Positions 23,989-41,841 of a stretch of DNA of 64,000 nt are shown piece after piece. Position 1 is the first letter of the stretch. The number at the start of each line of letters is the position of its first letter. Source of the DNA: Syntrophus gentianae (GTDB taxonomy: Bacteria > Desulfobacterota > Syntrophia > Syntrophales > Syntrophaceae); NCBI RefSeq assembly GCF_900109885.1, contig NZ_FOBS01000019.1:1-64000 (forward strand). Direction: 5' to 3'. Position numbers and translations under genes: made by a program. A model generated the notes under the pieces. That model made no database searches and had not been told where the DNA came from. It was given only the letters and a program-made list of their open reading frames with translations.

Positions 23989-25971
23989 ATGCGATACGGA
24001 GAAACAGGGTATAACCTAGAGATCGATTTAGCGACGGGGAATATTGAACGGGTGGAAACGTACCCGAAATCAGTCGAAACCCTTCTCGGAGGGCAGGGTA
24101 CGGCCTTGAAGATACTTTGGGACAGGGTTCCCCCTGATGTTGAACCCTTTTCTCCCGATAATCTGCTCATCTTCAGTGCGGGTCTTCTGCATGGCACGCC
24201 CGTTCCAGGCGCCAACCGTACCAGTGTCAGCACGATCAATCCCCAGTCAAACCTTTACGTTCATTCCGGATTCGGAGGCTTTTTCGGACCGGAACTGAAG
24301 CATGCGGGTTACGACCAGATCATCATTCGCGGCAAATCTCCCCGCCTTGTTTACCTGTGGATCCACAATGACAAGGTAGAAATACGGGATGCGAGTCAAC
24401 TCACCGGGAAAAGCGCTCGTGAAGTTGCCGTTCTTATTCAACAGGAGTTGAAGGACAGCAAAATCCAGGTGGCGGCCATCGGCCTGGCCGGAGAAAACCG
24501 GGTCTATCAGTCTACCATCGAACACTCCAACTCCAGCGCCTCTCAAGGGGCAGGCACAATCATGGGGGATAAGGGAATCAAAGCGATTGCCGTGCGGGGA
24601 AATAAGGAGATCAATATCGCCCGACCGGCTGACCTTTGGGAACTATGCCTTCGTCAATATCAGAGAATTTACGATAACCCCTATTGCGGCGATGTCTTCC
24701 TGCGTGAGGAGGACGATTCCTGGCACGCCAATCATTTCGCCTGTGGTGATGCGCAGGGGCGGGCAAGAGGTTATTGGAACAAAGAACTTCAGGACGAGTG
24801 GACGGTGCGTGTTGAAAGTGTGCGGACTTACCTCCAGTGGGAAAATTACAGCCAGGTCATGGAGGAGATGGAGGAAACGGTCGTTGAAACGAGCAAGATG
24901 CTGAGGGGAACCGCCTGTTACAACTGTCCGAAGGAATGCCATCAGGCGATTTCCCTGCCGAATTCGCGCAAATATTTTCTAAAATCCTACTGCAAACTTG
25001 CTTATGCGAAAGCGGCCTACGAGGATACGAAGCTTAATTACGATGTGCTTTGCGCCATCCAGGATTACGGCCTGGATGAATTCGCCATGCATCACGTCCT
25101 TTCTTTTGTCGTTGAACTATGTAACGCCGGCATTTTAACGGACGCAGACCTGCCGGAGTTTCCTGCCGAGGTCGAAGGCAGAATGATCTATCTGGCTGAA
25201 AAAATCGCCCAGCGGGAAGGGGTCGGCGATAAGCTGGCTAAGGGGATCTATGAGGCCGCTCGTCAGATCGGTAAGGGAGCGGAAGCCCATGTTCGCAATA
25301 TCACGAAAAAAATCGAGCAGGCGCCCCTCAGACAGGAAAAAGTCAATTACCCGTATTTTCTGATGTATGCCACCGGAGACAAGACCAATATCACCCAGGT
25401 CGAAGGCTCTTTTCCCCAGCAACCCATCCCCGATCCGGAGGAGCGGAAAAAATTCGTAGAATGCTGGGAGGCCGCTCCGGAGAAATTCAAAAAATGGTTC
25501 CTGGAATGGGAACCGGGTCAACAGCTTCCCATCGAAGCGGCAGTCAACATTGCCGCCTGGAACGAGGTGATGCATTACGTCGATGATGCCGTCGGCATGT
25601 GCACCTGGCTGTCATCGTTCCGAGGTCAATACGGCGGAAGCCCCCCTTATCACCTTTATAATCTGCCGAAGTACATCCACCTGGCTGCCGGCATCGAGCT
25701 CGATCCTGAAAAGCTTTGGGAAATCGGGAAAAGAAACCGCAATCTGGTCAGGGCCATCAATGTGAGAAGAGGCATGCGAAGAGCCGATGAACAGCCGCCG
25801 GAGGCCCATTGGAAAGAAAGGGATCCGGAGGCGGAGCAGCAACTCCTGGATGCCTATTATGAATTCAAAGGTTGGACACGAGATGGTATTCCGACCAGAG
25901 AGACGTTGGACAGTCTGGGCTTGGATTACGTGAGCGAAGATCTCGTAAAGCGGGAGATCCTGAAGGGCTAG
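23989..25971 (+). CDS. bamB: BamB-like tungsten oxidoreductase, divergent copy (BamB1)
   Basis: The 660-residue protein belongs to the aldehyde:ferredoxin oxidoreductase (AOR) family, BamB type, the catalytic subunit of class II benzoyl-CoA reductase. The cofactor domain has YLWIHNDKVEIRDA. The cluster ligands are CYNCPKEC and DDAVGMC. I chose ATG at 23989 because it matches the MRYxETGxNLE start of the paralogs. Three motifs conserved in the other two copies are altered: KCFxK is KSYCK, FAWGN is FACGD and FSTPQ is FAMHH. An extra stretch of about 25 residues precedes the first cysteine motif. It may have another substrate or a regulatory role. Confidence 0.85.
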   Translation: MRYGETGYNLEIDLATGNIERVETYPKSVETLLGGQGTALKILWDRVPPDVEPFSPDNLLIFSAGLLHGTPVPGANRTSVSTINPQSNLYVHSGFGGFFGPELKHAGYDQIIIRGKSPRLVYLWIHNDKVEIRDASQLTGKSAREVAVLIQQELKDSKIQVAAIGLAGENRVYQSTIEHSNSSASQGAGTIMGDKGIKAIAVRGNKEINIARPADLWELCLRQYQRIYDNPYCGDVFLREEDDSWHANHFACGDAQGRARGYWNKELQDEWTVRVESVRTYLQWENYSQVMEEMEETVVETSKMLRGTACYNCPKECHQAISLPNSRKYFLKSYCKLAYAKAAYEDTKLNYDVLCAIQDYGLDEFAMHHVLSFVVELCNAGILTDADLPEFPAEVEGRMIYLAEKIAQREGVGDKLAKGIYEAARQIGKGAEAHVRNITKKIEQAPLRQEKVNYPYFLMYATGDKTNITQVEGSFPQQPIPDPEERKKFVECWEAAPEKFKKWFLEWEPGQQLPIEAAVNIAAWNEVMHYVDDAVGMCTWLSSFRGQYGGSPPYHLYNLPKYIHLAAGIELDPEKLWEIGKRNRNLVRAINVRRGMRRADEQPPEAHWKERDPEAEQQLLDAYYEFKGWTRDGIPTRETLDSLGLDYVSEDLVKREILKG

Positions 25972-26047
25972 CGAGGTCATTCCTTCAAAGAGGTTCCAAA
26001 GGGTTTCAAGTCCATTTGGACGGGTAAAAAAATAGAAGAGGTAAAAA

Positions 26048-28024
26048 ATGAGGTACGCAGAAACTGGGTTTAATTTAGAAGTCGATCTATCCCAAGGAAG
26101 CGTTAAGCGGGTGCCGACAGACCCAAAATTAACCGAACTTCATCTGGGCGGGCAGGGTACTGCCCTGAGAATACTGTGGGATCGGGTTCCTCCTGAAGTC
26201 GATCCCCTGGCTCCCGAGAATGTGCTCATCTTCAGTGCCGCTCTTTTGCACGGTACGCCGGTGGTCGGTGCGAACCGCACCAGTGTGAGCACCATTTCTC
26301 CCCAGACAGGTTTATATGTGAATTCGCTGATGGGAGGGTACTTCGGACCGGAGTTGAAATTTGCCGGCTATGACAAGATTATTCTTACCGGAGAATCTCC
26401 CAAGCTGGTTTATCTGTGGATCCACAATGACAAAGTGGAACTGCGCGATGCGAGCCATCTCCAGGGAAAAGGGACGCGGGAAACCGCAGCCATCCTTGCC
26501 AAGGAGTTGAAAGACCCCAAGGTGCAAGTGGCGGCTATCGGCCTGGCCGGTGAAAACAGGGTCTATACGGCCAGCATTGAACACTACAACTCGAGCGCCG
26601 CTCGACATGGGGTGGGTGCGGTCATGGGATCCAAAAGGTTAAAGGCCATCGCGGTCCGGGGTACCAAGGACGTCAATATCGCCCATCCGGCTGAGCTCTG
26701 GACGATCAGCCAGGTCAAGTACAAGGAAATTCACGAGAACCCGAACGCCGGGGACCCCATGGCGCACGATCATAATGAAAGCTTCCATGTGGACAATTTC
26801 GCCTGGGGCAATGCACGAGAGCGAAGGAAGGGTTACTGGAACAAGGAGCGCGAAGAGAGATGGGTGGCGCTGTGGAAAAGAATCCGGCTGAGGGATACGA
26901 GTTGCTACAACTGTCCAAAGGACTGCCATTATCTGATCTCCTACCCGGGGCGGTCCACCTATCACCTGAAATGCTTCAACAAACTGACTTACACCATGGC
27001 GGCCTTCGAAGAGATCGACTTCAATTACGATATCCTCGGACTTACCACCGAATACGGATTGGACGGATTTTCAACGCCCCAGATTCTCGCCTTCGCCATG
27101 GAACTTTATCAAGCAGGGATTCTAACCAATGAAGACCTGCCTGGATTCCCCGAGGACAACAGGGGACGGTTCTTCTATCTCCTGGACATCATGGTTCATC
27201 GCAAAGGGATGATCGGCGATGCCCTGGCCCAGGGTGTTTACCGGGCAGCCCGGATCATCGGCCGAGGAGCCGAGGAATACGACCACAATACCACAAAGAA
27301 AGTGGAGCAGGTGCCGCTCAAACTGGGCATCGTCAATTTTCCCTTCTTCCTGATGTACTGCACCGGGGAGAAGATGAACATCACCCAGATTGAAGGTTCG
27401 TTCCCCCAGGCTCCTTTGAAGTTGGAGAAGAGAAAAAAGTTTGTCGAAAATTGGGCTGCAGCTCCGGAGAGGTTTAAAAAATGGTTTATGGAATGGGAAC
27501 CCCGGCAACACATGCCCATCGAGGCGTCTGTTGCGGCCTGTGACTGGAATGAAACCATGCATTTCGTCGATGACGCCATCGGGACATGCGCCTGGTTGTC
27601 GTCCTTCCGAGGCCAATTCGGCGGCTCGCCTCCTTATCATATTTTCAATCTTCCTGATTATATCTCCCTGGCCACCGGAATGGATATGGATTCCGACAAG
27701 CTTTGGGAAATCGCACAGAGGAACCGGAATCTCCTGCGGGCCATTAATGTCAGAAGAGGCTTGAGACGGGATGAGGAGAAACCGCCGGAAGACCATTGGG
27801 CAATTCGAGATCCCGAAATGGAGCAGAAGCACCTCGATGCGTATTATGAATTCAAGGGTTGGACAATGGACGGCATTCCTACCAAAGGGAGGCTTGAAGA
27901 ACTGGGATTGGGCGACGTGGCGGAAGACCTCATCAAGAGAGGAATCCTGACAGGTAACGAAGTTTATATCAAGCATGAGACTCCGTCGCTAACAGAAGAA
28001 TTGAAAGTGAATGTCAGGGGGTAA
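26048..28024 (+). CDS. bamB: benzoyl-CoA reductase catalytic subunit BamB (BamB2)
   Basis: This is the canonical copy, 658 residues, starting MRYAETGFNLEVDLSQG. Binding of the tungsten bis-pyranopterin and the [4Fe-4S] cluster is indicated by CYNCPKDC and the distal DDAIGTC. YHLKCFNKL carries the cysteine that, as I recall from the Geobacter BamBC structure, coordinates tungsten. HVDNFAWGN and GFSTPQ are intact. It would carry out the ATP-independent two-electron dearomatisation of benzoyl-CoA in the cytoplasm. AGAGGT precedes the ATG and bamC follows after 5 bases. Confidence 0.92.
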   Translation: MRYAETGFNLEVDLSQGSVKRVPTDPKLTELHLGGQGTALRILWDRVPPEVDPLAPENVLIFSAALLHGTPVVGANRTSVSTISPQTGLYVNSLMGGYFGPELKFAGYDKIILTGESPKLVYLWIHNDKVELRDASHLQGKGTRETAAILAKELKDPKVQVAAIGLAGENRVYTASIEHYNSSAARHGVGAVMGSKRLKAIAVRGTKDVNIAHPAELWTISQVKYKEIHENPNAGDPMAHDHNESFHVDNFAWGNARERRKGYWNKEREERWVALWKRIRLRDTSCYNCPKDCHYLISYPGRSTYHLKCFNKLTYTMAAFEEIDFNYDILGLTTEYGLDGFSTPQILAFAMELYQAGILTNEDLPGFPEDNRGRFFYLLDIMVHRKGMIGDALAQGVYRAARIIGRGAEEYDHNTTKKVEQVPLKLGIVNFPFFLMYCTGEKMNITQIEGSFPQAPLKLEKRKKFVENWAAAPERFKKWFMEWEPRQHMPIEASVAACDWNETMHFVDDAIGTCAWLSSFRGQFGGSPPYHIFNLPDYISLATGMDMDSDKLWEIAQRNRNLLRAINVRRGLRRDEEKPPEDHWAIRDPEMEQKHLDAYYEFKGWTMDGIPTKGRLEELGLGDVAEDLIKRGILTGNEVYIKHETPSLTEELKVNVRG

Positions 28025-28029
28025 AGACC

Positions 28030-28593
28030 GTGAGTGACGTAAAAAAGAGATTAATCAAAGAAATAAAAGCGGACCTTGATAAATGCATCGGTTGCCGTGC
28101 CTGTGAGCTGGCCTGCTCGGCATTTCATGCCAAGCCGAAATACAGCAGCATCAACCCGGACCGGGCGCGAATCCGTATGGTGATTGACGAGCAGAACGAT
28201 GTTTATGTCCCGGTGCGCGGTGGAGAGTATGCAAAGGCCGAATGCAGCGGCAGACAGACTTATAAGATTAATGGAATAGAGTATCCCCAGTGCAGCTTCT
28301 GCGGCGCTTCCTGTCCATCGAGAGATTGGTTCAAGGAACCCGATTCCGGCCTCCCGATCGCATGCGATATGTGTGAGGACATTCCGCCACAGAAGGAGCC
28401 GATGTGCGTCCAGGTATGCCGGACCGGCGCCCTGACTTATGTTGAATATGAAGAGGAATGTGAAGAAAAGGCGACACCGGATGAGATGGAACTCGGGTTG
28501 GAAAGTCTGGCGGATCGATATGGATTGGACAAGGTCATGAATGCGGTCGCCCGGATGGCGCAGCAGGGCACAGGCGTTGAGCCTCAAAAATAA
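28030..28593 (+). CDS. bamC: BamC, iron-sulfur subunit of benzoyl-CoA reductase
   Basis: The 187-residue ferredoxin-like protein has multiple four-cysteine motifs: CIGCRACELAC, CSFCGASC, CDMCED and CVQVC. These are enough for about three [4Fe-4S] clusters, as in DMSO reductase or AOR electron-transfer subunits. It pairs with BamB and would feed it low-potential electrons. The start is GTG at 28030, preceded by GGGGGTAAAG. It lies 5 bases after bamB2, and a second copy follows bamB3. Confidence 0.9.
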   Translation: MSDVKKRLIKEIKADLDKCIGCRACELACSAFHAKPKYSSINPDRARIRMVIDEQNDVYVPVRGGEYAKAECSGRQTYKINGIEYPQCSFCGASCPSRDWFKEPDSGLPIACDMCEDIPPQKEPMCVQVCRTGALTYVEYEEECEEKATPDEMELGLESLADRYGLDKVMNAVARMAQQGTGVEPQK

Positions 28594-28624
28594 AAAGCAG
28601 ACTAAGGGATAAGGAAGGAAACCG

Positions 28625-29776
28625 GTGGAAACGATAGCCCCCTTCAAAGAAATTATAGAAGAAGTAAAAGCGCACGGTGGAGACGCCTTCAAAAGATGCT
28701 TCCAATGCGGTTTGTGCGACAGTGTCTGTCCCTGGAACAGGGTGACGAGTTTCAGTATGCGCAAACTGGTCCGGGAGGCCACCTTCGGCCTGACGGACAT
28801 TGAAAGCGAAGACATGTGGCGCTGCACCACCTGTGGAAGATGCCCCCAGCAGTGTCCACGGGATGTAAAGCAGATCGAGTCCGGGGTGGCCCTGCGCCGG
28901 ATCGCCACGGAATACGGAGTGTTCCCCCATTCCGTCTTACCCATCAAGTCCATTCGAGGCAGCCTCGTCGGTTCGGGGAACCCCCTGAACGAAGAACGGA
29001 GCAAGCGGGCGGACTGGGCCAAGGGCCTGAACGTCCCGGAATTTACCGAGGATATGGAGATCCTCTATTTCCCCGACTGCTACGCCAGCTATGACCCGAG
29101 AATGAAGAAGGTGGCCGTGGCCACGGCGAAAATCCTGCAGGCAGCGGGAGTCAATTTCGGCATCCTGGGGGATAAGGAAGTCTGCTGCGGGGAGAGCATC
29201 CGCAAGGCGGGCGACGAGGAAGTGTTCAAACGCCTGGCAAAGGAAAACATCAAGGCCTTTGTCGATGCCGGGGTGAAGAGGATACTGGTCTCCTCCCCCC
29301 ACTGCTACCACACCTTCAAGAACGAGTACCCCGAGTTCAAGGTGAACTTCGAGGTGGTCCACATATCCCAGTTCCTGGCCGAACTGATTTCGCAAGGGAA
29401 ACTGACCCTGAAGGGCGAATACGCCAAGAAGGTCACCTGGCATGACCCCTGTTACCTGGGGCGGCACAACGGCGTCTATGACGAACCAAGAAATGTCCTG
29501 AACAGCGTCCCCGGCATCGAGTTCACAGAGCTGCCGGAGCACCACGTCGCCAGCCTCTGCTGCGGCGGCGGAGGAGGCCGGATCTGGATGGAAACGGTCA
29601 AGGGAGAGCGTTTCTGCGACCTGCGGCTCGATCAGGCCGTCGGCGTCGGGGCCGAGGTGCTGGTCACTGCCTGTCCTTACTGCATCACCAACTTCGAGGA
29701 CAGCCGGGTCACCATGGGTCTGGACGACAAGATTGAAGTAAAAGAGCTCTCGGAAGTAATTTCGGAAGTGCTTTAA
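28625..29776 (+). CDS. bamD: BamD, HdrD/GlpC-like iron-sulfur protein
   Basis: The 383-residue protein has two N-terminal ferredoxin motifs (CFQCGLCDSVCP, CTTCGRCPQQCP). Two CCG domains of the heterodisulfide reductase type follow (CCGESIRKAGD, and HDPCYLG...CCGGGGG). Such domains bind an unusual [4Fe-4S] cluster in HdrB/D and related proteins. Within the Bam complex it is thought to link the HdrA-like BamE to the reductase. Start is GTG at 28625 after AAGGAAGGAA. It is intact and of normal length. Confidence 0.9.
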   Translation: METIAPFKEIIEEVKAHGGDAFKRCFQCGLCDSVCPWNRVTSFSMRKLVREATFGLTDIESEDMWRCTTCGRCPQQCPRDVKQIESGVALRRIATEYGVFPHSVLPIKSIRGSLVGSGNPLNEERSKRADWAKGLNVPEFTEDMEILYFPDCYASYDPRMKKVAVATAKILQAAGVNFGILGDKEVCCGESIRKAGDEEVFKRLAKENIKAFVDAGVKRILVSSPHCYHTFKNEYPEFKVNFEVVHISQFLAELISQGKLTLKGEYAKKVTWHDPCYLGRHNGVYDEPRNVLNSVPGIEFTELPEHHVASLCCGGGGGRIWMETVKGERFCDLRLDQAVGVGAEVLVTACPYCITNFEDSRVTMGLDDKIEVKELSEVISEVL

Positions 29777-29807
29777 GAAATCATCAAATCTGATGAGGTT
29801 GATATCA

Positions 29808-32800
29808 ATGGAAAAAGAACAGATCGAACAGCTTTGCAAAAGCTTCGGAAATAACCGTTTTGGAGACGTCATGGTCGTCGGCGGCGGGATCAGCGGCATT
29901 CAGGCCTCTCTTGATCTGGCCACGGCGGGTTTCAAGGTATACCTGGTGGAGCAAGGGCCCAGCATCGGGGGTCATATGGCCCAGTTGGACAAGACCTTCC
30001 CCACCAACGACTGCTCCATGTGAATTCTCTCACCGAAACTGGCCGAGGTCGGCCGGCATCCAAACATCGAGATACTGACGTATACTGACGTTGACAGTGT
30101 CGTCGGAGAGGCGGGAGATTTCACGGTAACCGTCGTTAAAAAGCCCAGATATATTCTGGAGGACAAGTGTACGGGGTGCGCCGTCTGCACGGAGTACTGC
30201 CCGGTACAATACCCGGATTCATTCAACCAGGACATCTCCTATAACAAATCCGTCCACGTCTATTTTTCTCAGGCGTTCCCCCTGGTGGCCTATATCGACG
30301 AGAGCTGCCTCTACCTGAAGGATAAGAAGTGTACGCTCTGCCAGAGAGTCTGCAAGGCGGACGCCATCGATTTCAAGCAGAAGCCGCAGAAGGTGGAGAT
30401 CAATGTGGGAGCCGTCATCCTGGCGACCGGCATGGAACCTTTTGACCCCGGCGAAAATGCGGAATATCACTACGGCGAGTTTGCCAACGTGGTCACCAGC
30501 ATGGATTTCGAGCGGCTGCTGTCCGCCACGGGAGCTTACGGTGGTGAAATCCTGCGGTCTTCCGACAGGAAGCACCCCCATAAAATCGCCTGGATTTCCT
30601 GTGTCGGTTCCCGACGGGTCACTCCGGGGGAGAACAGCTATTGTTCCGGCGTCTGCTGCACCTATAACCAGAAACAGGTGATCCTGACCAAGGAGCACAA
30701 CGCCGAGGCGGAGTGTACGATCTTCCATAATGACATCCGTTCCTTCGGGAAGGACTTCGAGCGGTTCTACCAGAGAACCGCCGATCTTCCCGGCGTCCGG
30801 TTCCTTCGTAGCTACGTGTCCATCGTAACAGAGGACCCCATTACGAAGAATGTGACGATCCGCTATTCCACGCCCGATGAAGGGGTCAAGGAAGAAGAGT
30901 TCGAGATGGTGGTCTTGTCCGTCGGCCTGAATCCTCCGGACAAGGCAAAGGAAATGGCGGCCAGGTTCGGGATCGATCTCAATGCCCAGGGATTCTGCCT
31001 GACAAATCCAGCCAATCCCATGGAGACCAGCCAACCCGGCATCTTTGTCAGTGGCGGCTTCCAGGGACCGGCGGATATTCCCGATTCGGTTCTGACGGCC
31101 AGCGCTGCCGGCTCGCAGGTCGGTGAACTCCTTGACTACCGGCGCGGGAAGCTATCCACGGAAAGGGTCTATCCGGCGGAGAGGGATGTCTCCCAGGAGG
31201 AACCAAGGATCGGTGTCTTTGTGTGCCATTGCGGGGCGAACATCGGCCGGATCGTCAATGTGCCGGAAACGGTTGAATACGCCCTGACCCTGCCCAACGT
31301 GGTCTACGCCCAGGAGCAGCTTTTTGCCTGCGCTACGAATTCCGCAAGGGAAATCACCGACATGACCCGGGAAAAAGGTCTCAACCGCGTGGTCGTCGCG
31401 GCCTGCTCGCCACGAACCCTGGAACCCCTCTTCCGGGACACCGTCCGGGAAGCGGGAATCAATCAGTATTACTACGAAATGGCGAACATCCGGGAGCATA
31501 ATTCCTGGGTGCATGCAAAGGAAAAGGAAGACGCCACGCAGAAGGCCAAGGATCTCATCCGGATGTCGGTGGCGCGGGCCCGCAGTCTGGAGCCCCTGCC
31601 CGAGTATGATCTGCCGGTGGACAATGCAGCCCTGGTCGTGGGCGGCGGAGTTGCCGGAATGATCTGCGCCCTCTCCATTGCCGACCAGGGACACGAGGTT
31701 TACCTGGTGGAAAAGGAGGGAAAGCTGGGTGGAACGGCAAGAAGAGTCCATTACACCCTGGAAGGGATGGATGTTCAGGCTTACTTGGACGATCTGATCA
31801 GGAAAGTTTATCAAAACCCCCTGGTGCATGTCTACACGGGTGCAACCATCACGGAGGCCGGCGGCTACATCGGAAATTTCGTAACGAAGGTGAATTCCAG
31901 CAGAGGTCCTGCGGAGATCAAGCACGGGGCCACGGTCATCGCCATCGGGGCAGAGGAATACAAGCCCATGGAATACCTCTACGGCCAGGATGAGCGGGTC
32001 CTGACCCAGCTGGAGCTGGAAGGCCTGATCGCCGGAGAGGATGATAAGATCCTCAATGCCGAGAACCTCGTAATGATCCAGTGCGTGGGCTGCCGGAACG
32101 AGGACCGGAATTACTGCAGCAAGATCTGCTGCACCCATGCGATCAAGAATGCCCTGAAGCTGAAGGAGAAAAACCCCCGTGTGGACATCTTCATCCTCTT
32201 CAGGGATATGCGGACCTACGGGTACGCCGAGGATTATTACCGGGAGGCCTCGGAGAAGGATGTCCGGTTCATCCGGTTTGAGGCGGAAGAGGCCCCGACG
32301 GTGGAAGCGGTGCTAGAGGAAGGCAAGCAGGTCCTGCGGGTGACCGCGCCGGATTACATCCTCGGCCAGAAGCTGGCCCTGGACGCGGACCTCCTCGTTC
32401 TGTCCGCCGCCACGATTCCTTCGCAGACAACGCAGGACATCGCGAGCCTGTTCAAGGTCACGTTGAACCCGGATGGCTTCTTCAAGGAAGCCCATGTGAA
32501 ACTGCGGCCTGTCGAGTTCGCGACAGACGGCGTTTATCTCTGCGGCATGGCCCAATATCCCAAGCATATCGCGGAAACGATCAGCCAGGCCTATGGAGCC
32601 GCAGGCCGTGTCCTGACACTCCTATGCCGGGATATCGTGACGGCCTCGGGCGCGGTGGCCCAGGTGGATGAAAACCAGTGCGTTTCCTGCGGGGCCTGCA
32701 TCACGGTCTGTTCGTACGGCGCCATCGACTTTTACGAGTCGCCGCAGGGCAGAAGAGCCAGGGTGAATCCCGTCCTCTGCAAGGGAGACGGGGTCTGCAA

Positions 32801-32924
32801 CACCGTATGCCCCACCTCGGCGGTTTCCCTGAAGCACTTTACCGATGAAGAGATCGGGAACCAGATCGAGGCTGCCCTTCAGGAGGAAGAAACGGTACAG
32901 CTCCTCATGGATGAGGTGGTTTGA
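29808..32924 (+). CDS. bamE: BamE, HdrA-like flavoprotein with selenocysteine at codon 72
   Basis: The gene encodes 1038 residues if the in-frame UGA at 30021-30023 is read as selenocysteine; the frame continues unbroken for 967 further codons. Sec lies in FPTNDCSM-Sec-ILSPKL, the position of a cysteine in other HdrA proteins, so it is not a nonsense mutation. It has a Rossmann fold (VVGGGISGIQASLDLA) and ferredoxin motifs (CTGCAVCTEYC, CTLCQRVC). A second HdrA-like FAD half follows (VVGGGVAGMICALSIA), with two C-terminal [4Fe-4S] motifs (CVSCGACITVC, CKGDGVCNTVC). It is a candidate bifurcating module that would drive benzoyl-CoA reduction. Start is ATG 29808 after GAGG. Confidence 0.93.
30039..30056 (+). 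promoter_or_regulatory. SECIS hairpin of bamE
   Basis: Downstream of the UGA, CTGGCC (30039-30044) pairs with GGCCGG (30051-30056), one G-U pair, around the loop GAGGUC. That loop resembles the AGGUCU loop recalled for E. coli fdhF. It begins 15 bases after the UGA. Confidence 0.65.
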
Positions 32925-32984
32925 AATGGTTAAAAATATACGAAGAAATAAAATCAGGATTTCGAATGGAAGGGGTGAGAAAGA

Positions 32985-33764
32985 ATGACGACAGGACTGG
33001 AATTTAAGCCCAAGATACTCGGTTTTGTATGCCAGTGGTGAGGGTACGGCGCAGCTGACCTGGCTGGAGTTTCCAGACTGCAATATGCGACCGATATTCG
33101 GCTCATCCGTGTCATGTGTTCCGGCAGAGTCGATCTGACCCATGTATTCAAGGCTTTCTCGAAGGGGGCCGATGGGGTGTTCGTCATCGGGTGCCACCTG
33201 GGGGAATGCAACTATATCACCCATGGGAATTACCATGCGTTAAGCACCGTTCAGCTGGCGAAGAAGATTCTGGAACGGGTCGGGTTGGATCCCGGACGGC
33301 TGAGAATTGAATTCATCTCCGGCGCCGAAGGCGTCCGCTTTGCCGAAACCATGAATGATATTGAAAAGAAGGTGAAGGCGCTGGGACCGCTCGGCGAAGC
33401 CGAAGGAATCGCCAAAGATACACTGGCCGCCAAACTGGCCGCCGTGACGAGATTGCTCCCCTCCATTCGACTGGTGGAGAGGGAAAGGATGAGATTATCC
33501 CCGAACCTTAAAAAGAGGGAAGAAGTCGAAGCCTTTTTCAAAAGTAAGGAGGTGGATAAGATCTTCGATGACTTGGTCGGCGACAAGCTGGCGATCAGTG
33601 AGATCATGTCCCTCCTGCGGCAGCAGCCCCTTTCCACGGGAGAAATCGCTGAACGGTTGGGCCTCTCCCCTTCTGCCGTATCGAGACATATGAATACCTC
33701 ATCGAAACACGGACTGGTCCGGTACGATGTAGAACAGAAGCGCTACACCCTGGCCGCAGCCTGA
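32985..33764 (+). CDS. bamF: BamF, MvhD-like protein with selenocysteine at codon 19 and C-terminal HTH
   Basis: The 259-residue protein requires UGA at 33039-33041 to be read as selenocysteine. The motif is FVCQW-Sec-GYGAADLAG, where MvhD proteins have C-x-W-C-x-Y-x-x-A-D at the [2Fe-2S] site. The MvhD domain continues to about residue 140 (FVIGCHLGECNY). A further 120 residues end in a winged helix-turn-helix (STGEIAERLGLSPSAVSRHM). It probably passes electrons between BamE and partners. The start is ATG 32985 after GGGGTGAG; no in-frame start downstream of the UGA would retain the N-terminal cysteine motif. Confidence 0.92.
33064..33076 (+). promoter_or_regulatory. SECIS-like hairpin of bamF
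   Basis: CTGGA (33064-33068) pairs with TCCAG (33072-33076) around GUU, with the G-U about 27 bases after the UGA. The stem is short; flanking GCAG (33051) and CTGC (33078) can extend it with an asymmetric bulge. Confidence 0.5.
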
Positions 33765-33809
33765 AGCCCGGCAAGGGATTTCGGAAAAAAGAAGATTAGG
33801 ATAACGATT

Positions 33810-34262
33810 ATGGATAACGAGAAAATCGATTCGATTATCGAAAAGCATCATGGCGCGTCCAGTGCGCTCATTCAGATCCTGCTGGATATCCAGGAGGAAA
33901 ATCATTGGCTGCCCAAGGAAGCGCTGGAGCGGGTCAGTGAAAAACTCCAGATTCCGATCACCACGGTCCGGCATGCGGCAACCTTCTACAAGGTCTTCAG
34001 CACCGTTCCCAAAGGGCGTCATCAGGTTCACGTCTGTCTCGGCACGGCCTGTCACGTCCGCGGGGCAACGCGCGTCCTGGACACCGTGGAAGAAACGACG
34101 GGCATTAAACCCGGGGAAACGGACCTGGATTTGAAGTTCAGCCTGGAAACGGTGAACTGTCTCGGTTGCTGCGCACTGGGACCCGTGATGGAAATCGACG
34201 GGAAGGTCTACGGCAAGGCGACGCCGAGCAAGACAATCGACGTGTTAAAAAATTACGAGTAG
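33810..34262 (+). CDS. bamG: BamG, NuoE-like [2Fe-2S] subunit
   Basis: The 150-residue protein matches the 24-kDa NADH dehydrogenase subunit. It has HHGASSALIQILLDIQ, TVRHAATFYKVF, CLGTACHVRGA and VNCLGCCALGPVM, giving the four [2Fe-2S] cysteines. With BamH it would form an NADH-linked electron input or output module. It is intact, with 9 bases before bamH. Confidence 0.92.
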   Translation: MDNEKIDSIIEKHHGASSALIQILLDIQEENHWLPKEALERVSEKLQIPITTVRHAATFYKVFSTVPKGRHQVHVCLGTACHVRGATRVLDTVEETTGIKPGETDLDLKFSLETVNCLGCCALGPVMEIDGKVYGKATPSKTIDVLKNYE

Positions 34263-34271
34263 GGGAAAATT

Positions 34272-36203
34272 ATGGTGCGGTTAAATTCACCTGAAGAGTT
34301 AGAAGGCTTCAGGCAAGAGATACGATCCAGAAGAGATCCCGGCAAACCCTGTATCTCCATCTGCGCCGGTTCCGGTTGTGTGGCCTCCGGCGCCACCGAG
34401 GTCATTGCGGCCTTTAAAGAGGAGATTGAAAAACAGGGACTGACGGCAACTGTGGATACCAAGGGCACGGGGTGTCCGGGATTTTGTGAAAGAGGACCCA
34501 TCGTGGTGATCTATCCCGAGGAGATCTGTTATCTCCAGGTAACGCCTGAGGACGTTCCCGAGATTATCTCCCAGACCCTCAAGGAGAACAAGGTCATCGA
34601 TCGCCTGCTCTACGTGGACCCAGCCACCGGAGAAAAAGCGGTCCACGAATACGACATCTCCTTTTACCGGAACCAGGAACGGAATGTCATCTGTAATAAC
34701 ATCAAGATCGATTCCAAGAGCATCGATGACTATCTGGCGAACGGCGGGTATTCCGCTTTAGGCAAGGCCCTGGGTTCGATGACCCCGGTTGCGGTCCTGG
34801 AGGAAGTCAAAAAGGCCAATCTGCGCGGAAGGGGGGGCGCCGGCTTCCCTGCGGGCGTTAAATGGGAAGGCTCCCGCAATGCCCCCGATCCGGTCAAATA
34901 CGTCATTGTCAATGCCGACGAGGGGGACCCCGGGGCGTTCATGGATCGCGCGGTCCTCGAAGGCAATCCCCACTCCGTCCTCGAGGGGCTGATCATCGGC
35001 GGGTATGCCATCGGCGCCCAGGAGGGGTACATTTACGTCCGTCACGAATACCCCCTGGCGGTAGAAAATATCACCCTGGCGATTCAGCAGGCGGAAGCCT
35101 ATGGACTGCTGGGAGAAAATATCCTTGGTTCCGTTTATCGTTTCAAGGTGTTCGTGAACCAGGGGGCCGGTGCTTTTGTCTGCGGGGAATCGACGGCCCT
35201 GATGACGTCCATTGAAGGCCGGGCGGGCGAGCCCCGACCGAAGTATGTCCGCTCCAACGTCGTCGGCCTCTGGGGGCACCCCACCGTGCTGAACAACGTG
35301 GAGACCTGGGCGAATGTGCCGCTGATCATCAATAAAGGCGCCGACTGGTTTACTTCCATTGGAACGGAGAGCAGCAAGGGGACCAAGATCTTCTCCCTGG
35401 TGGGCAAGATCACCAATACGGGTCTTGTGGAAGTTCCCATGGGGATTTCGCTGCGGGATATCGTCTTCAGGATCGGCGGCGGCATCCCCAGCGGGAAGAA
35501 GTTCAAGGCGATCCAGACCGGAGGGCCGTCGGGAGGCTGTATCCCTGAGTCCCTGCTGGATCTGCCGGTCGGTTTTGATGAGCTGACCGCGGCGGGTTCC
35601 ATGATGGGCTCCGGGGGAATGATCGCCATGGATGAGGATACCTGCATGGTGGATACCGCCCGGTACTTCATCAAATTCCTGACCGATGAATCGTGCGGGA
35701 AATGCGTCCCCTGCCGGGAAGGACTGAGGCAGATGGATAACATCCTGACCCGGATCACCGAAGGGGACGGCAAAGAGGGCGACCTCGAGCTTTTGGAGGG
35801 GCTGGCGGAGACTGCTCAGGAGGCCGCCTTGTGCGCTTTGGGCAAGAGTGCCCCCAATCCCTTCCTGAGCACGTTGAAATACTTCCGGGATGAATATGAG
35901 GCGCACATCCGGGAGAAGCGCTGCCCGGCCCTTTCCTGCAAGGAGCTGATCGCCTACGTCATCGATCCGGAGAAGTGCCAGGCGTGCATGATGTGTGTGA
36001 AGAAGTGCCCTGCCGGGGCGATCGACGGCGGCAAGAACCTGATCAGCATCATCGATCAGGAGAAATGCACGAAATGCGGGACCTGCTTTGAAGTATGTCC
36101 CCCCCGCTTCCAAGCGGTGCGGAAGATCTCCGGCGAGCCGGTGCCGCCTCCCATTGCGGAAGAAGCGAGAACGATCGTCAGAGGGGGTAAGAAAGATGAG
36201 TGA
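34272..36203 (+). CDS. bamH: BamH, NuoF-like NADH/FMN subunit with extra ferredoxin domains
   Basis: The 643-residue protein begins with a thioredoxin-like [2Fe-2S] domain (CAGSGCVASGA, TGCPGFCERGP, residues 28-85). The NADH and FMN domain follows (GRGGAGFPAGVKW, GAFVCGESTALMTSIEG), then the N3-type cluster motif SCGKCVPCREGL. Two C-terminal ferredoxin clusters (CQACMMCVKKCP, CTKCGTCFEVCP) complete it. This is the arrangement of HydB/NuoF proteins in bifurcating hydrogenases. It overlaps bamI by 8 bases. Confidence 0.93.
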   Translation: MVRLNSPEELEGFRQEIRSRRDPGKPCISICAGSGCVASGATEVIAAFKEEIEKQGLTATVDTKGTGCPGFCERGPIVVIYPEEICYLQVTPEDVPEIISQTLKENKVIDRLLYVDPATGEKAVHEYDISFYRNQERNVICNNIKIDSKSIDDYLANGGYSALGKALGSMTPVAVLEEVKKANLRGRGGAGFPAGVKWEGSRNAPDPVKYVIVNADEGDPGAFMDRAVLEGNPHSVLEGLIIGGYAIGAQEGYIYVRHEYPLAVENITLAIQQAEAYGLLGENILGSVYRFKVFVNQGAGAFVCGESTALMTSIEGRAGEPRPKYVRSNVVGLWGHPTVLNNVETWANVPLIINKGADWFTSIGTESSKGTKIFSLVGKITNTGLVEVPMGISLRDIVFRIGGGIPSGKKFKAIQTGGPSGGCIPESLLDLPVGFDELTAAGSMMGSGGMIAMDEDTCMVDTARYFIKFLTDESCGKCVPCREGLRQMDNILTRITEGDGKEGDLELLEGLAETAQEAALCALGKSAPNPFLSTLKYFRDEYEAHIREKRCPALSCKELIAYVIDPEKCQACMMCVKKCPAGAIDGGKNLISIIDQEKCTKCGTCFEVCPPRFQAVRKISGEPVPPPIAEEARTIVRGGKKDE

Positions 36204-36780
36204 AATCCTTTTACAGATTGATGGGAAAGAGGTCAAGGCTCAGGAAGGGATGACCATTCTAGAGGCAGCCCGGAGTGCGGGGATTTTTATTCCGACCCTG
36301 TGCTACCACGAGGAACTGGAACCCTTTGGCGGCTGCCGGCTCTGCATCGTGGAACTGGAGAGCCGCGGTTCGACGAGGCTCGTTGTTTCCTGTGTTTACC
36401 TGGCGGAGAAAAACCTGGTCGTTCGGACGCGTTCCGAGAAGATCGATCGAATCCGCAAGATGATCCTGGAACTCCTGCTGGCTCACGCACCGGATTCCTT
36501 TGTTCTGGAGGATCTGGCGAAGGAGTATGGGGCGGATCGGAACCGCTTCGGCAAGGAGCCTTCCTTCTGCATCCATTGCGGTCTCTGTGTTCGGTACTGT
36601 GCCGAGGTCGCGAAAAAGAGCGCCATCGGCTTCGTGGACCGGGGGATCCACAAGGAGATCAGTTTCATCCCGGAAATTGCCGCCAGGGAATGCATGTCCT
36701 GCAGGAAGTGCTTCCCGCTCTGTCCCACCGAGGCCCTGCAGGCAGCGTATGTTTTGACCATGGGGCTGACGGCGCCCTGA
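36196..36780 (+). CDS. bamI: BamI, NuoG/HydA-like iron-sulfur subunit
   Basis: The 194-residue protein corresponds to the N-terminal ferredoxin part of NuoG. A plant-type [2Fe-2S] motif (FIPTLCYHEELEPFGGCRLC) is followed by SFCIHCGLCVRYC and CMSCRKCFPLCP for [4Fe-4S] clusters. It lacks a molybdopterin or hydrogenase domain. Start ATG 36196 overlaps the end of bamH. It closes the set of soluble electron-transfer proteins. Confidence 0.9.
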   Translation: MSEILLQIDGKEVKAQEGMTILEAARSAGIFIPTLCYHEELEPFGGCRLCIVELESRGSTRLVVSCVYLAEKNLVVRTRSEKIDRIRKMILELLLAHAPDSFVLEDLAKEYGADRNRFGKEPSFCIHCGLCVRYCAEVAKKSAIGFVDRGIHKEISFIPEIAARECMSCRKCFPLCPTEALQAAYVLTMGLTAP

Positions 36781-36857
36781 CCTTCTTTCGCCTGCCGGCG
36801 CAGAGAGGAATGACGTAACACTCTAATTCAGTAACAAATAGAGGAGGAGTAAACCGG

Positions 36858-38429
36858 ATGTTAAGAATGCAAGCAATCCCGGAGGAGTTTAACATCGTAA
36901 GCTACCTGCTGGACAGGCACCTTGAGGAGGGACGAGGCAACAATATCTGTATCTATTATGAGGACGAGAAGATCACCTACGCCCAGGTTGCGGAACAGTC
37001 CTGCCGGATCGGCAACGCACTGCTCTCTCTGGGCTTGGAGATGGAGAACCGGGTCGCCCTCAGCATGGCGGACCGGCCGGAATTTTTCTGCAGTATCCTG
37101 GGTACCATGAAGGCCGGCATCGTCCCGGTCTTGCTGAGCACCATGGCCATTCCCAAGGATTACCTCTATTACCTCAATGACAGCCGTGCCAAAGCCATGA
37201 TTGTCGACGAGACCGTGCTGTCGAAAGTTCTGGAAGTAAAAAATGAACTCAAGTATCTGAAACACCTCATTGTTGTGGGAACTCCGGCGGCAGCCGGCCA
37301 GTTGAGTTACGACGAGATCACGAAGGCAGCCTCTCCAAAGCTGGAGACGGTTCTGGTCAACAAAAACGATCAGGCATTCTGGCAATACAGCTCCGGGACG
37401 ACCGGGCAGCCCAAAGGCGTGATCCATCTCCATAAAGACCTGATGTATGCGACCGCTCATTGCGATGACGTGGTGAAAGCCGGTGTAGATGACATTTCCT
37501 TCGGCCTGTCCAAGCTGTATTTCTCCTATGGCCGCAACAACAACTTCGACACCGTCCTCCTGAGTGGTGGAGCAGTTGTTCTCTTCCCAGGGATGCCCAA
37601 ACCGGAGTCCCTGTTCGAGGTCATCAAAAAATACAAGCCCACGATCTATTACGGCGTGCCCAGCTCCTACATGGCCATGATTGCCCTGATCGACAAGGGA
37701 TACGAGTATGACCTCACCTCCCTCAAGGCCTGTGTATCCGCCGGTGAAGCCCTGCCCAGGGTGACCTTCGATCGTTGGCGGGAATTGACCGGCATATCCA
37801 TTCTGGATGGTCTGGGCTCCACCGACGTCGGCTTCATCTACCTGTCCTGCACCCCCGAAAACCTGAAGTTCGGGACCTTGGGCCATGTCCTGGCCAATGT
37901 GGAAGGCAAGCTCTGTGACGAGGACGGCAACGAAGTTCCCCAGGGCGAACAGGGAGAAATGTGGATCAAGAGCGGCTGCACGGCGGACCGTTACTGGAAC
38001 AAACCGGAGAAGAACAAGGCCGCCTTCATCGGCGAGTGGTTCAAAACGGGCGACAAGTTCTATATCGATGAGGAAGGATACGTTGTGGGGGCCGGCCGCG
38101 CCGATGACATGCTGAAGCCCGGTGGAATCTGGGTCTCCCCCGTCGAGGTGGAAAATGCGATTCTCGGCCATCCCGCTGTTGCGGAAGCCGGTGTGATCGG
38201 CGCCGCGGACAAGGATGAGCTGGAAAAACCCATGGCCTACGTCGTCCTCAAGGAAGGATATGAGGCATCTCCGGAGCTCACTAAAGAGATCCAGGATCTG
38301 GTCCGCGGCAAACTCGCCCACTACAAGGCCCCTCGCTGGATCCATTACGCCAAGGAACTGCCCCGGACGGCAACCGGCAAAGTCCAACGCTACAAACTTC
38401 GCCAACAGGTGAAAGAAACAGGATTGTAG
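36858..38429 (+). CDS. bamY: benzoate-CoA ligase (AMP-forming)
   Basis: The 523-residue ANL enzyme resembles benzoate-CoA ligases. It has QYSSGTTGQPKGVIHLHKD (adenylate loop), SAGEALPRVTFDRW, GLGSTDVGFI, KTGDKFYIDEEGYVVGAGRA, and PRTATGKVQRYKLRQ with the catalytic lysine. It converts benzoate or a close analogue, ATP and CoA to the aryl-CoA, AMP and pyrophosphate, the entry step for the Bam complex. It follows bamI by 77 bases with GAGGAGGAG before the ATG. Benzoate specificity is inferred from context. Confidence 0.85.
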   Translation: MLRMQAIPEEFNIVSYLLDRHLEEGRGNNICIYYEDEKITYAQVAEQSCRIGNALLSLGLEMENRVALSMADRPEFFCSILGTMKAGIVPVLLSTMAIPKDYLYYLNDSRAKAMIVDETVLSKVLEVKNELKYLKHLIVVGTPAAAGQLSYDEITKAASPKLETVLVNKNDQAFWQYSSGTTGQPKGVIHLHKDLMYATAHCDDVVKAGVDDISFGLSKLYFSYGRNNNFDTVLLSGGAVVLFPGMPKPESLFEVIKKYKPTIYYGVPSSYMAMIALIDKGYEYDLTSLKACVSAGEALPRVTFDRWRELTGISILDGLGSTDVGFIYLSCTPENLKFGTLGHVLANVEGKLCDEDGNEVPQGEQGEMWIKSGCTADRYWNKPEKNKAAFIGEWFKTGDKFYIDEEGYVVGAGRADDMLKPGGIWVSPVEVENAILGHPAVAEAGVIGAADKDELEKPMAYVVLKEGYEASPELTKEIQDLVRGKLAHYKAPRWIHYAKELPRTATGKVQRYKLRQQVKETGL

Positions 38430-38459
38430 GATTATAGAAGATCAATAAACATGTTTAGA

Positions 38460-38519
38460 TAAAATGGAGTTTCGAGTTTTCCCTGTTGTTGCAGCGCATA
38501 AACTCTAAACTCCATTTTA
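38460..38519 (+). terminator. bam operon terminator
   Basis: TAAAATGGAGTTT (38460-38472) pairs with AAACTCCATTTTA (38507-38519). An inner GAGTTT/AAACTC stem extends it past one mismatch. It ends the long bamB1-to-bamY gene run. Confidence 0.75.
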
Positions 38520-38587
38520 TTGGTTCACCCGGACAAACCAATAAGATGCGGATTTCGGCTCAGTTTTCCTCTTAGAGGTGCTTCAAC

Positions 38588-39181
38588 ATGCTAAATAAAA
38601 AAGTTTTGCGAAAACAGCAGATTCTCCAGGCGGCTCTGGAAGTCTTTGGCAACAGCGGTTTTCAAACTGCCGGCATCTCGGATATCGCCCGGAAGGCAAA
38701 AATAGCCGAAGGGACGCTATATTTCTACTTCAAGAACAAGGAAGATCTTTTCTTCTCCATTCCAGCGCAAAGGATCGCAGAATTCTGCGAGGGGCTGGAG
38801 CTCCATTTACAGGGAATGAATGAAGCTCCAGGGAAACTGCGAAAAATAATCTGGTTCTATCTCTATTTTTTCAAAACAAATCCGGTCTATGCACGGATTC
38901 TGATGCTGGAGATGAGCGTTAGCAAGCGTTTTTCAAAGGCCATAACCTTTGACCGGGTCAAAGCGTTTACGGACCTCGTTCTGGGAATCATCAAGGAGGG
39001 TCAGGAGGAGGGCTTTATCAGAAAGGACAGGGATGCATGTCTCGTAAGGGATATATTGCTGGCCGTGCTGGAGTACAGAGTCGCCCGCTGGCTGCTCAAT
39101 GAGGAAAGTTGTGACCTTCTGGAAAATTACAGTGAGATATGTGACTTCATTTTCGACGGGATAAAATCAAAACTGACCTGA
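38588..39181 (+). CDS. TetR family regulator (copy 1)
   Basis: The 197-residue protein has the N-terminal TetR helix-turn-helix (ILQAALEVFGNSGF, ISDIARKAKIAEGTLYFYFKNKEDLF). The C-terminal ligand domain is largely alpha-helical and of the AcrR/FadR-like length. The copy at 40991 is closely related, and the two flank a transporter gene. Their similarity suggests a tandem duplication with a possible shared or divided regulon. Ligand unknown. Confidence 0.9.
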   Translation: MLNKKVLRKQQILQAALEVFGNSGFQTAGISDIARKAKIAEGTLYFYFKNKEDLFFSIPAQRIAEFCEGLELHLQGMNEAPGKLRKIIWFYLYFFKTNPVYARILMLEMSVSKRFSKAITFDRVKAFTDLVLGIIKEGQEEGFIRKDRDACLVRDILLAVLEYRVARWLLNEESCDLLENYSEICDFIFDGIKSKLT

Positions 39182-39220
39182 TGAGATTACTGTTGTTTCT
39201 TCAAAGAAGGAGGGTCGTGC

Positions 39221-40771
39221 ATGTTGCAAGATCGTAGGATGTTAGGACTTATATTAATTGCAGTTCTTGGCATTTTGATCGCGATGGCGCAGCCATTTGC
39301 ACCTGGGTTATCGCCCCTGGGACATTATGTCATGGGTACTGTTCTGTTTGGCTTGGGGATGTGGATCTTCCGTCCCGGCATGTTGCCTTTTATGTCGGGG
39401 GTTTCCTTCATCCTTGGCGTTACTCTGGCACTCTTTTTTGCTTTTAAAGCCGGGCTGGTCTTTCCGGGTAAAGTACCCTTTAAGTCACCGCAGCAAATTT
39501 ATGGGGTCGTCATGGGCGGGTTTACGTCGTCTGCCGTCTGGACCTTGATCCCCGCACTGTTTTTCGGTTTTGTTCTCCAGAAAACGGGGTTGGGCAAACG
39601 CATCGCCTATCTGGTATTGAAAACCTTCCCGGCGAGTTGGCTGGGTTTGGCAATCAGCTGGCTTGTAATCGGCGTTGCCCTTTCCGCCTTGTCGCCTTCC
39701 AGCACCGTCCGGGTGGCCATCGTCGTTCCCATTGCCATCGGGATTGTGGAAGCCTGTAAACTGGAGTTCCGCTCCAGGGGGTCGGCCTATGTCTGTCTTT
39801 TGGCCTGGGGGATGGCCGTCATTCCCGGAACGGGATGGTTGACCGGTTCTCTGTCGGGACCGATCATGCAGGGATTCTTTCCTCCGGAAATCAAAGCCAT
39901 GTGCAATTTCGACGACTGGTTCCGTATCCTGGCCCTGCCCTGGTTTGTGATTACGATTGTGTATGTTGCTTTGTCCTATCTCATTGCCAAGCCGAAAGAA
40001 GCCATCGGCTTTTCGTCCGACCTGTTCCAGGAGGAATACAAAAAACTGGGACCGATGTCGAAGGATGAGCTCATTACGATGATTGTCATCATTCTCTCGC
40101 TGGTTATGTTTTCCACGGAAAAGATGCATGGGATTCCCATCCCGGCAACAGCCCTGGGTGCCCTGTTCCTTCTTATCCTGTTCCGTATCATTACCGCCCC
40201 GGAGATCCCCCCCGGGATAAACTGGGACGTGGTCTGCTTCTTCGGTATTGCAGTCGCATTACCCTCCATCTTCGCGGTTTCCGGTATCTCCGAATGGTTA
40301 GGTCCCCTGATCAAGGGACCGATCATGTCCGTAGCGGGCGCGCCCCTGCTGTTCATGCTGATCATCACTGCGGGGCTTTTGCTTATTCGGTTCGTGGACG
40401 TCCCCTGGGGCTTCACGACCTGTGCATTGACCATCATGCTGCTGATCCCGCTCCTCAAGGATTTCGGCTATCATCCCCTGGTTGTGACCATGGCGTACCT
40501 GATCGCCATCAACTTCTTCCTGCTGAGTTACCAGCAACCCTGGATTCCCATGGCTGAAGGGATGATTCAAGGACGAGGATGGGCGCCGGCTCATGTGGCC
40601 GAGTTTGGTCTGATCTACGTTGCTTCGGCCTTCATTTCCTTACTGGTGTCTGTGCCCTATTGGAAGATGATCGGCGTTATCCGTTACTTAATAAATCATA
40701 AAAGCAAAATCATCGGCCCCGGATATGGACAGAATCTTGTTTATGTCCGGTGCTTATTTCTTCTTGATTGA
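39221..40771 (+). CDS. DASS/SLC13-type anion:cation symporter
   Basis: The 516-residue integral membrane protein has about twelve hydrophobic segments. The SSxxNTP-like family signature appears degenerate (LSALSPSSTVRVAIVVPIAIG). Further segments are WDVVCFFGIAVALPSIFAVSG and YLIAINFFLLSYQQPW. DASS carriers import dicarboxylates, sulfate or related anions with sodium or protons. Its position after the benzoate-CoA ligase suggests uptake of aromatic or other organic acids, which is inference. AAGGAGGGT precedes the ATG; the last 20 residues look non-helical. Confidence 0.75.
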   Translation: MLQDRRMLGLILIAVLGILIAMAQPFAPGLSPLGHYVMGTVLFGLGMWIFRPGMLPFMSGVSFILGVTLALFFAFKAGLVFPGKVPFKSPQQIYGVVMGGFTSSAVWTLIPALFFGFVLQKTGLGKRIAYLVLKTFPASWLGLAISWLVIGVALSALSPSSTVRVAIVVPIAIGIVEACKLEFRSRGSAYVCLLAWGMAVIPGTGWLTGSLSGPIMQGFFPPEIKAMCNFDDWFRILALPWFVITIVYVALSYLIAKPKEAIGFSSDLFQEEYKKLGPMSKDELITMIVIILSLVMFSTEKMHGIPIPATALGALFLLILFRIITAPEIPPGINWDVVCFFGIAVALPSIFAVSGISEWLGPLIKGPIMSVAGAPLLFMLIITAGLLLIRFVDVPWGFTTCALTIMLLIPLLKDFGYHPLVVTMAYLIAINFFLLSYQQPWIPMAEGMIQGRGWAPAHVAEFGLIYVASAFISLLVSVPYWKMIGVIRYLINHKSKIIGPGYGQNLVYVRCLFLLD

Positions 40772-40990
40772 GTTTGGAGATTGAGTACCAAAGAATTCCA
40801 CAACACGGGCAATTCTCACTTTCAATAAATAATCCGTGATCTCGGGATGTAATCGACGGTGCGGACCAGACTTCCAATTCAAGCGCTCGGAGCGGGAAGG
40901 GACATTTTCGAATATTACGGAGGGAAAATCGTTCTTCAACGAGACATATTAAACCATTAATAGACCATAACGTATCAGAGGCGCTTTAAA

Positions 40991-41593
40991 TTGGCAAAGA
41001 TTAACAGGAAAGATTTACGAAGAAAACAAATCATTGAAGCAGCGATTGACGTCTTCGGCAATGGCAATTTCCATGAAGCCAGTATTACTGAGATCGCCCG
41101 GAAGGCAAACATATCCGAAGGGACGATATATTTCTACTTCAAGAACAAGGAAGACCTTTTCTTTGCAATTCCGGCACAAAAGATAGAAGAATTCTGTGAG
41201 GAGCTTGAGTTCCAACTTGAAGGCATTCAAGATGCTTTCAATAAACTCAAAAAATATACCTGGTTCTATCTCTTTCATTTCAAAACAAATCCGGCTTACG
41301 CCCGAAGCTTGATGCTTGAGATGCATGTAAACAAGAATTTCTACAACTCAAAAACCTCTGTCCAATCGAAAAGAGCCACCGACAAAGCTCTCGAAATCAT
41401 TCGGCAGGGTCAGGAGGAAGGCCTCTTTAGAAAAGACATAGATGAAGAAGTCATCCAGGCACTGTTGCTGGGCATGCTGGAATATAGGGTCACCAAATGG
41501 GTGCTCAAGGACCAAGCGTATGATCTCCTGGAAAATTATGGTGACATATGTGAAGTGATCTTTAATGGAATCAAGTCATCTGAGAATATATAA
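40991..41593 (+). CDS. TetR family regulator (copy 2)
   Basis: The 200-residue protein is paralogous to copy 1: FGNGNFHEASITEIARKANI corresponds to FGNSGFQTAGISDIARKAKI, and YFYFKNKEDLFFAIPAQKIEEFCEELE is nearly shared. The start is TTG at 40991 with GAGG at 8-base spacing, which is unusual, and no ATG is available nearby. It likely binds an acyl- or aryl-CoA and may control the transporter or the second bam cassette. Confidence 0.87.
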   Translation: MAKINRKDLRRKQIIEAAIDVFGNGNFHEASITEIARKANISEGTIYFYFKNKEDLFFAIPAQKIEEFCEELEFQLEGIQDAFNKLKKYTWFYLFHFKTNPAYARSLMLEMHVNKNFYNSKTSVQSKRATDKALEIIRQGQEEGLFRKDIDEEVIQALLLGMLEYRVTKWVLKDQAYDLLENYGDICEVIFNGIKSSENI

Positions 41594-41609
41594 TTATTTG
41601 CCTTGAAAA

Positions 41610-41645
41610 GATCACACAATGGGTGGGAGTTAATGATGGCTAAAC
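41610..41645 (+). repeat. direct repeat, left copy flanking the second bam cassette
   Basis: The segment beginning GATCACACAATGGGTGGGAG is repeated with about eight mismatches at 45668-45703. The two copies bracket the iclR2-bamB3-bamC2 cassette. No reading frame is evident. Confidence 0.5.
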
Positions 41646-41754
41646 ATAACTTATATATCCCATCCAGCTTTTCCCGCCGACTGGCACCCTCCTCTCATCC
41701 AAGATTTTTCCTATTCCAGTAAACCATCCTTAATTGATTCTTTTAAGATACTGC

Positions 41755-41827: not shown

Positions 41828-41841
41828 ATAGAGGAGTTCTT

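Follow-up and report, generated by a model that had tools for sequence, protein, structure and literature searches.

The C-terminal winged helix-turn-helix domain of BamF and its association with adjacent bamGH genes in class II benzoyl-CoA reductase-type clusters

BamF, a putative electron-transfer subunit encoded in a 64,000-nucleotide stretch of Syntrophus gentianae DNA (hereafter the window), ends, as domain searches and structure models show, in a real winged helix-turn-helix (wHTH) domain, and the presence of this domain in BamF proteins tracks the presence of the genes bamG and bamH directly behind bamF. We infer from these gene arrangements that the tail domain of BamF follows the electron outlet of its complex, and we put the chances at about even that the wHTH serves to dock BamGHI, the NAD(H) module. 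That BamF carries a wHTH is not new in itself, as the Geobacter metallireducens bamF gene (Gmet_2083) is listed in a 2007 microarray table, in an entry whose text is cut, as 'hydrogenase, delta subunit; HTH mo' (PMC1924859). No discussion of a role for the BamF wHTH, or of a swap between wHTH and ferredoxin tails, was found in the open-licence literature, a body of text that leaves most subscription papers outside; in the part of PMC3087415 where MvhD and HTH wording occur, the HTH mention concerns another protein. The architectural rule around the tail type thus looks unreported.

By its domains and gene order, the window BamF appears to be a subunit of the class II benzoyl-CoA reductase type. 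Its gene lies between the HdrA-like bamE and bamG in a cluster of the bamBCDEFGHI type (Table 1), and it resembles the G. metallireducens BamF in operon order and in being an MvhD-like subunit, a comparison made by description only. A tandem pair of bamB-like genes occupies positions 23899-28024 of the window. In another genome of the same genus, which carries two clusters, the BamB proteins are 42-61% identical to the two BamBs of the window and BamD-G are 87-96% identical, as if the catalytic part had been exchanged and the electron part kept.

Table 1. Positions in the window of bamE to bamI and of the parts of bamF
Feature	Position	Strand	Basis
bamE (HdrA-like), start ATG 29793 or 29808	29808..32924	+	in-frame TGA/Sec 30021-30023
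bamF, 259-aa selenoprotein, MvhD/FlpD + linker + wHTH	32985..33764	+	ATG start, TGA readthrough
FlpD/MvhD domain, residues 11-134	33015..33386	+	Pfam PF02662, E 3e-48
In-frame TGA, codon 19 (CQWUGY), taken as selenocysteine	33039..33041	+	frame readthrough, relatives, tRNA-Sec
Helical linker, residues 144-186, common to ferredoxin form	33414..33542	+	predicted helices 144-168, 178-186
Winged helix-turn-helix, residues 188-259	33546..33761	+	Pfam HTH_5, AlphaFold2, CzrA/SmtB/IclR structural matches
Recognition-type helix, residues 229-241	33669..33707	+	AlphaFold2 model, conservation
bamG, NuoE-like, thioredoxin-like [2Fe-2S]	33810..34262	+	PF01257, E 1.5e-51
bamH, NuoF-like, FMN domain + C-terminal 2[4Fe-4S] domain (~35955-36203)	34272..36203	+	PF01512, PF10589, Fer4; likeness to ferredoxin-form BamF tails
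bamI, NuoG-like, [2Fe-2S] + Fer4	36196..36780	+	Pfam (scanned as 36190-36777)

The full-length bamF frame requires readthrough of the TGA at codon 19, and in the mechanical list of open reading frames it begins only at 33114. This codon is TGA in 52 of the 56 distinct proteins of the wHTH form and in 57 of the 59 of the ferredoxin form, and the genome encodes a tRNA-Sec (77.4 bits against an Rfam cut-off of 47). No SECIS element was among the three Rfam matches in positions 24000-44000, all of them far under their cut-offs, and RNA folding 3' of the two TGA codons gave z values of -0.02, -1.24 and -1.42, which are neutral on SECIS. The bamE frame also requires a TGA to be read as selenocysteine (NDCSMUILSPK), which puts its true start near 29793 or 29808 instead of 30285. 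A second in-frame TGA site, near residue 70 (GADGIFVGU) and not at residue 19, was observed in the MvhDs of loci L087, L089, L090, L091, L093, L100 and L101, and also in the short MvhD copies of L094, L096 and L099.

The first-pass annotation had read an ArsR/MarR-like wHTH at the end of BamF from the bare sequence, and this reading held up. Pfam HTH_5 (ArsR) matches residues 206-246 with an E-value of 2.8e-10 (40.3 bits against a cut-off of 22), or 4e-11 when positions 33540-33761 alone serve as the query; the stretch STGEIAERLGLSPSAVSRHM corresponds to residues 217-236. The AlphaFold2 model, built on a 63-row alignment that includes 50 of 54 wHTH and 12 of 17 other listed proteins, has a mean pLDDT of 91.7, and from residue 181 on the values are 86-94 per 10-residue block. 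Its C-terminal part consists of helices 188-213, 218-225 and 229-241 followed by strands 245-248 and 253-256, which is the arrangement of a winged helix and not the non-HTH fold that would have spoken against the annotation. A chance resemblance of the tail to an HTH was thereby ruled out by the HTH_5 E-values together with the models. As to its extent, the interval 33540-33764 given for the wHTH (residues 186-259) was right, whereas the '120-residue extension' described behind the MvhD domain (about residues 140-259) also takes in the helical linker at about 33414-33542.

Structural searches with Foldseek and VIA-align relate the N-terminal domain to the MvhD subunits of Hdr complexes (Z about 23) and the C-terminal domain to CzrA, SmtB, IclR, MarR-type and Z-alpha domains (Z about 8.5-9.7). 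In sequence, residues 6-139 match MvhD, FlpD and VhuD of methanogen Hdr complexes (PDB 5odc, 8rvu and 7bkb) with E-values of 3.7e-43 to 4.4e-33, but these methanogen proteins have 129-141 residues and neither the linker nor the wHTH. The tail aligns with CzrA over 63 residues (Z 9.7, rmsd 2.6) and with SmtB (1r23) over 59 (Z 9.5, rmsd 1.1). It thus shares the fold of ArsR/SmtB-type proteins such as SmtB, CzrA and HlyU, and also of IclR, but is fused behind an electron-transfer subunit. FeoC is a winged helix that binds a protein partner, FeoB; it is similarly close (PDB 4awx, Z 9.5, 62 aligned, for an odd model range of 95-258), but is a separate small protein of an unrelated pathway.

A scan of GTDB-type genomes for BamF returned 33 loci, of which nine encode a wHTH form, 20 a form with a C-terminal ferredoxin, three a short archaeal MvhD and one an HTH only. 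A phylum-wide search gave a BamF match, mostly to weaker kin, in 353 of 395 genomes. Relatives in these scans rule out that the extension is peculiar to this genome. In these sequences, bacterial BamFs fall into two forms that have the MvhD domain and linker in common, up to about residue 198, the wHTH being a standard trait of one of them. In the ferredoxin form, represented by a second copy in the own genome (C30), by the NaphS2 protein L019 and by Desulfonema magnum (L011), two [4Fe-4S] motifs stand in place of the wHTH, and the MvhD domain and linker of C30 are 46% identical to the window BamF over residues 3-194. The extension is likewise not universal in MvhD proteins, a possibility that the first-pass annotation had named as counting against its reading: all six MvhD-type PDB sequences have 129-141 residues and no wHTH, and 10 of the 185 classified copies in the sampled loci are short MvhDs. 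Many FlpD frames of less than 210 residues also occur among the matches listed, which are ordered by their fit to Pfam. In two BamF relatives, L104 and L185, the 203-aa frame closes directly behind the linker and includes no wHTH or ferredoxin, and at L103 (G223:C78) a ferredoxin-form MvhD lies inside a listed open frame of 1186 aa.

The association between tail type and bamGH was counted in a sample made up of the genome-scan loci and hand-picked rows of the phylum search, taken from among the matches listed, and limited to complete proteins whose genes are followed by 2.5 kb or more of sequence, de-duplicated by their last 90 residues. bamG and bamH come next on the same strand behind 40 of 41 distinct proteins with a clear wHTH, but behind none of 52 distinct ferredoxin-form proteins (median 6.2 kb examined) and none of eight short MvhDs. 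The 41 leave out the window BamF, whose loci are too short, and L102, a diverged wHTH-like BamF with bamGHI that missed the wHTH profile. At the wHTH loci the BLAST match to BamG begins 20-299 bases past the bamF stop (median 52.5). A count made without window-protein queries gave the same picture, with a NuoE-like cluster at 38 of 39 wHTH loci and nothing NuoE- or NuoF-like among the nine largest clusters behind 51 ferredoxin-form loci; representatives of these ORF clusters were assigned from their sequences, two of them being Pfam-tested. Behind ferredoxin-form bamF we found ETF-type genes at 12 of the 51 loci and a CCG/Fer4 oxidoreductase with a hydrophobic N-terminus at 11 of 51, each type identified by Pfam on one representative, and the rest are assorted.

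The contrast extends to whole genomes. In 10 of 10 wHTH genomes, the protein most similar to BamH residues 1-545 reaches 72-83% identity and is always encoded next to bamF; the best match reaches 49-64% in 20 of 20 ferredoxin-form genomes, one of which (G331) also has a 216-aa BamH piece at 69%; NuoF-type relatives at 50-67% are present in both sets. No wHTH BamF was found in the 20 ferredoxin-form genomes among the matches listed. The exception among the 41 is a clear wHTH BamF (L055/L123) encoded in an isolated bamE-bamF pair with no bamGH within 6.5 kb. In strain NaphS2, homologues of BamG-I have been reported in a separate cluster (PMC2988823), and its BamF (L018/L019) is of the ferredoxin form; in this strain the module might therefore work in trans.

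Given this tie between the wHTH and bamGH, a protein is the likelier partner of the domain. In the mechanism that we propose, the MvhD domain, bearing a Sec/Cys-ligated cluster, would sit on BamE as MvhD does on HdrA, and the helical linker would carry the wHTH out to BamGHI. The wHTH would touch BamG or BamH, presumably without binding DNA, and the docking would open a path for electrons between BamE/F and BamH; at loci that lack bamGH, BamF instead ends in a two-cluster ferredoxin of its own. The electron outlet of class II benzoyl-CoA reductase is debated in the literature, with NAD or menaquinone under consideration (PMC12096430), and the text of another report speaks of an 'unknown high-potential acceptor' of the complex (PMC11971306). 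If the BamF tail does mark the outlet, the presence of the NAD(H) module in a complex could be read from genome sequence alone, and the wHTH would plainly exemplify a DNA-binding fold put to use as a docking adaptor within machinery for electron transfer.

The tail is, on the other hand, not confined to proteins with bamGH nearby. A further set of MvhDs about 40% identical to BamF (group C), from lower rows of the phylum search, adjoin an HdrA-like gene and at several loci also HdrC-, MetV- and MetF-like genes, named from their sequences. The AlphaFold2 model of one member (L086) shows a wHTH-like tail with a pLDDT of 87-96 per block, Foldseek gave weak wHTH matches for a group C tail, and Pfam returned sub-cut-off hits only, HemN_C in L086 and Rrf2 with HTH_24 in L094. 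Three proteins scoring 13-15 bits on the wHTH profile were counted in group C. bamGH follows in only one of 14 scorable members. Within BamF the wHTH tracks adjacent bamGH, yet 13 group C members without bamGH carry it; the wHTH would therefore be older than, or not confined to, docking of BamGHI. It could be that wHTH tails dock different partners in different complexes. Another assembly role, in which the wHTH pairs with its twin in a dimeric complex or contacts BamE/HdrA, unrelated to BamGHI, would explain why group C carries a wHTH always beside an HdrA-like gene here and mostly without bamGH, and ArsR/MarR folds are common dimerisers. We nevertheless consider such a role rather improbable, since the split between 40 of 41 and 0 of 52 does not follow from it alone. 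Ferredoxin-form and short MvhDs, moreover, adjoin the same HdrA-like gene without a wHTH, which is thus not needed for contact with BamE. As for pairing with a twin, ArsR proteins have a C-terminal dimerisation helix after the wing; the BamF model stops three residues past strand 253-256 and has no helix there.

The wHTH could alternatively belong to a redox-responsive DNA-binding regulator, in which the MvhD cluster would sense redox state and the wHTH bind a bam operator. The ArsR-like sequence match and the DNA-bound regulators among the close structural matches speak for this reading, as does a conserved, weakly basic recognition-helix face. In conservation counts over 51 wHTH BamFs (with L102 and 11 group C members in a column of their own), Ser230 is kept in 47, Ser/Ala233 in 50, Arg/Lys234 in 48, Arg/Lys241 in 45 and Asp248 in 50, and the domain has a mean net charge of +2.2. 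Such a face is compatible with DNA binding; it would mark an interface and not its partner. The ArsR/SmtB-specific NCBIfam model HTH_metalloreg, by contrast, is missed (33.9 bits against a cut-off of 55). Residue 231 is acidic (Glu/Asp) in 44 of 51, although Ala in the window, and residue 239, as a rule a buried core Leu in HTHs of the ArsR/MarR type, has become Ser in 49 of 51, while group C keeps Leu; together with the missing helix after the wing, these features argue against a DNA-binding regulator. So does the tail's tracking of bamGH and not of regulatory context. The homologous complex, Bam[(BC)2DEFGHI]2, is described as a stoichiometric enzyme (PMC11971306), and the cluster has regulators of its own, with an IclR gene (an ORF assigned by likeness to its neighbour's Pfam-tested copy) directly upstream of bamB and two TetR genes and one IclR gene (Pfam) downstream. 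Upstream of bamB, no shared non-coding block was found beyond gene-start matches of 44-47 bases, in a weak test on three clusters of one genus, the window's and two in another genome, and an equally weak operator search of 23400-24000 gave only three short palindromes. DNA binding by the BamF wHTH is thus unsupported, and we judge the regulator reading unlikely. Still more doubtful is a variant in which BamF, a subunit of a megadalton ring-reducing enzyme, would when free of the complex be a redox-gated DNA-binding protein, its Sec/Cys MvhD cluster sensing the electron outlet and its wHTH acting on bam promoters. Of the two roles for which the first-pass annotation had allowed, complex assembly consequently fits better, given the association with bamGH, the composition of the complex and the separate IclR and TetR genes, and redox-responsive regulation fits less well.

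We find it hardly credible that a gene fusion left the wHTH behind as a passive domain of little function. The two related short forms that stop after the linker would agree with a dispensable tail, but the wHTH has persisted in 57 wHTH rows of a tree with 33 starred branches overall, and many of its positions are near-invariant.

The ferredoxin tail of BamF, for its part, was apparently derived from the C-terminus of BamH. Two CX2CX2xX3C motifs are present in all 67 ferredoxin tails of the sampled loci, and all 67 match the last 110 residues of the window BamH at 44-76% identity. Given the order bamF-bamG-bamH and the ferredoxin at the end of BamH, one deletion joining the bamF linker to the bamH tail would yield the ferredoxin form, which may thus have been made in a single step. 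A quick tree built on residues 1-198 nests the ferredoxin form inside the wHTH form and calls for two tail changes, one for a clade of 62 rows (SH-aLRT 94) and one for the C30 copy of the own genome, so the wHTH would be the older state in BamF; a single origin of the ferredoxin form is not rejected (AU p 0.534). The split in bamGH is therefore a strong association that rests on few independent origins (one or two events), and with only two independent pairs, independent contrasts for the link between tail and bamGH are unable to reach significance. Within the own genome, the C30 tail and BamH match with 106.5 bits, and the next annotated-independent match scores 52.6 bits. Two fragments at contig starts (G000:C34:1-201 and G000:C41:1-201) carry ferredoxin-type tails scoring 107.9 bits, and are probably, to judge from this likeness, further ferredoxin-form bam copies broken by the assembly.
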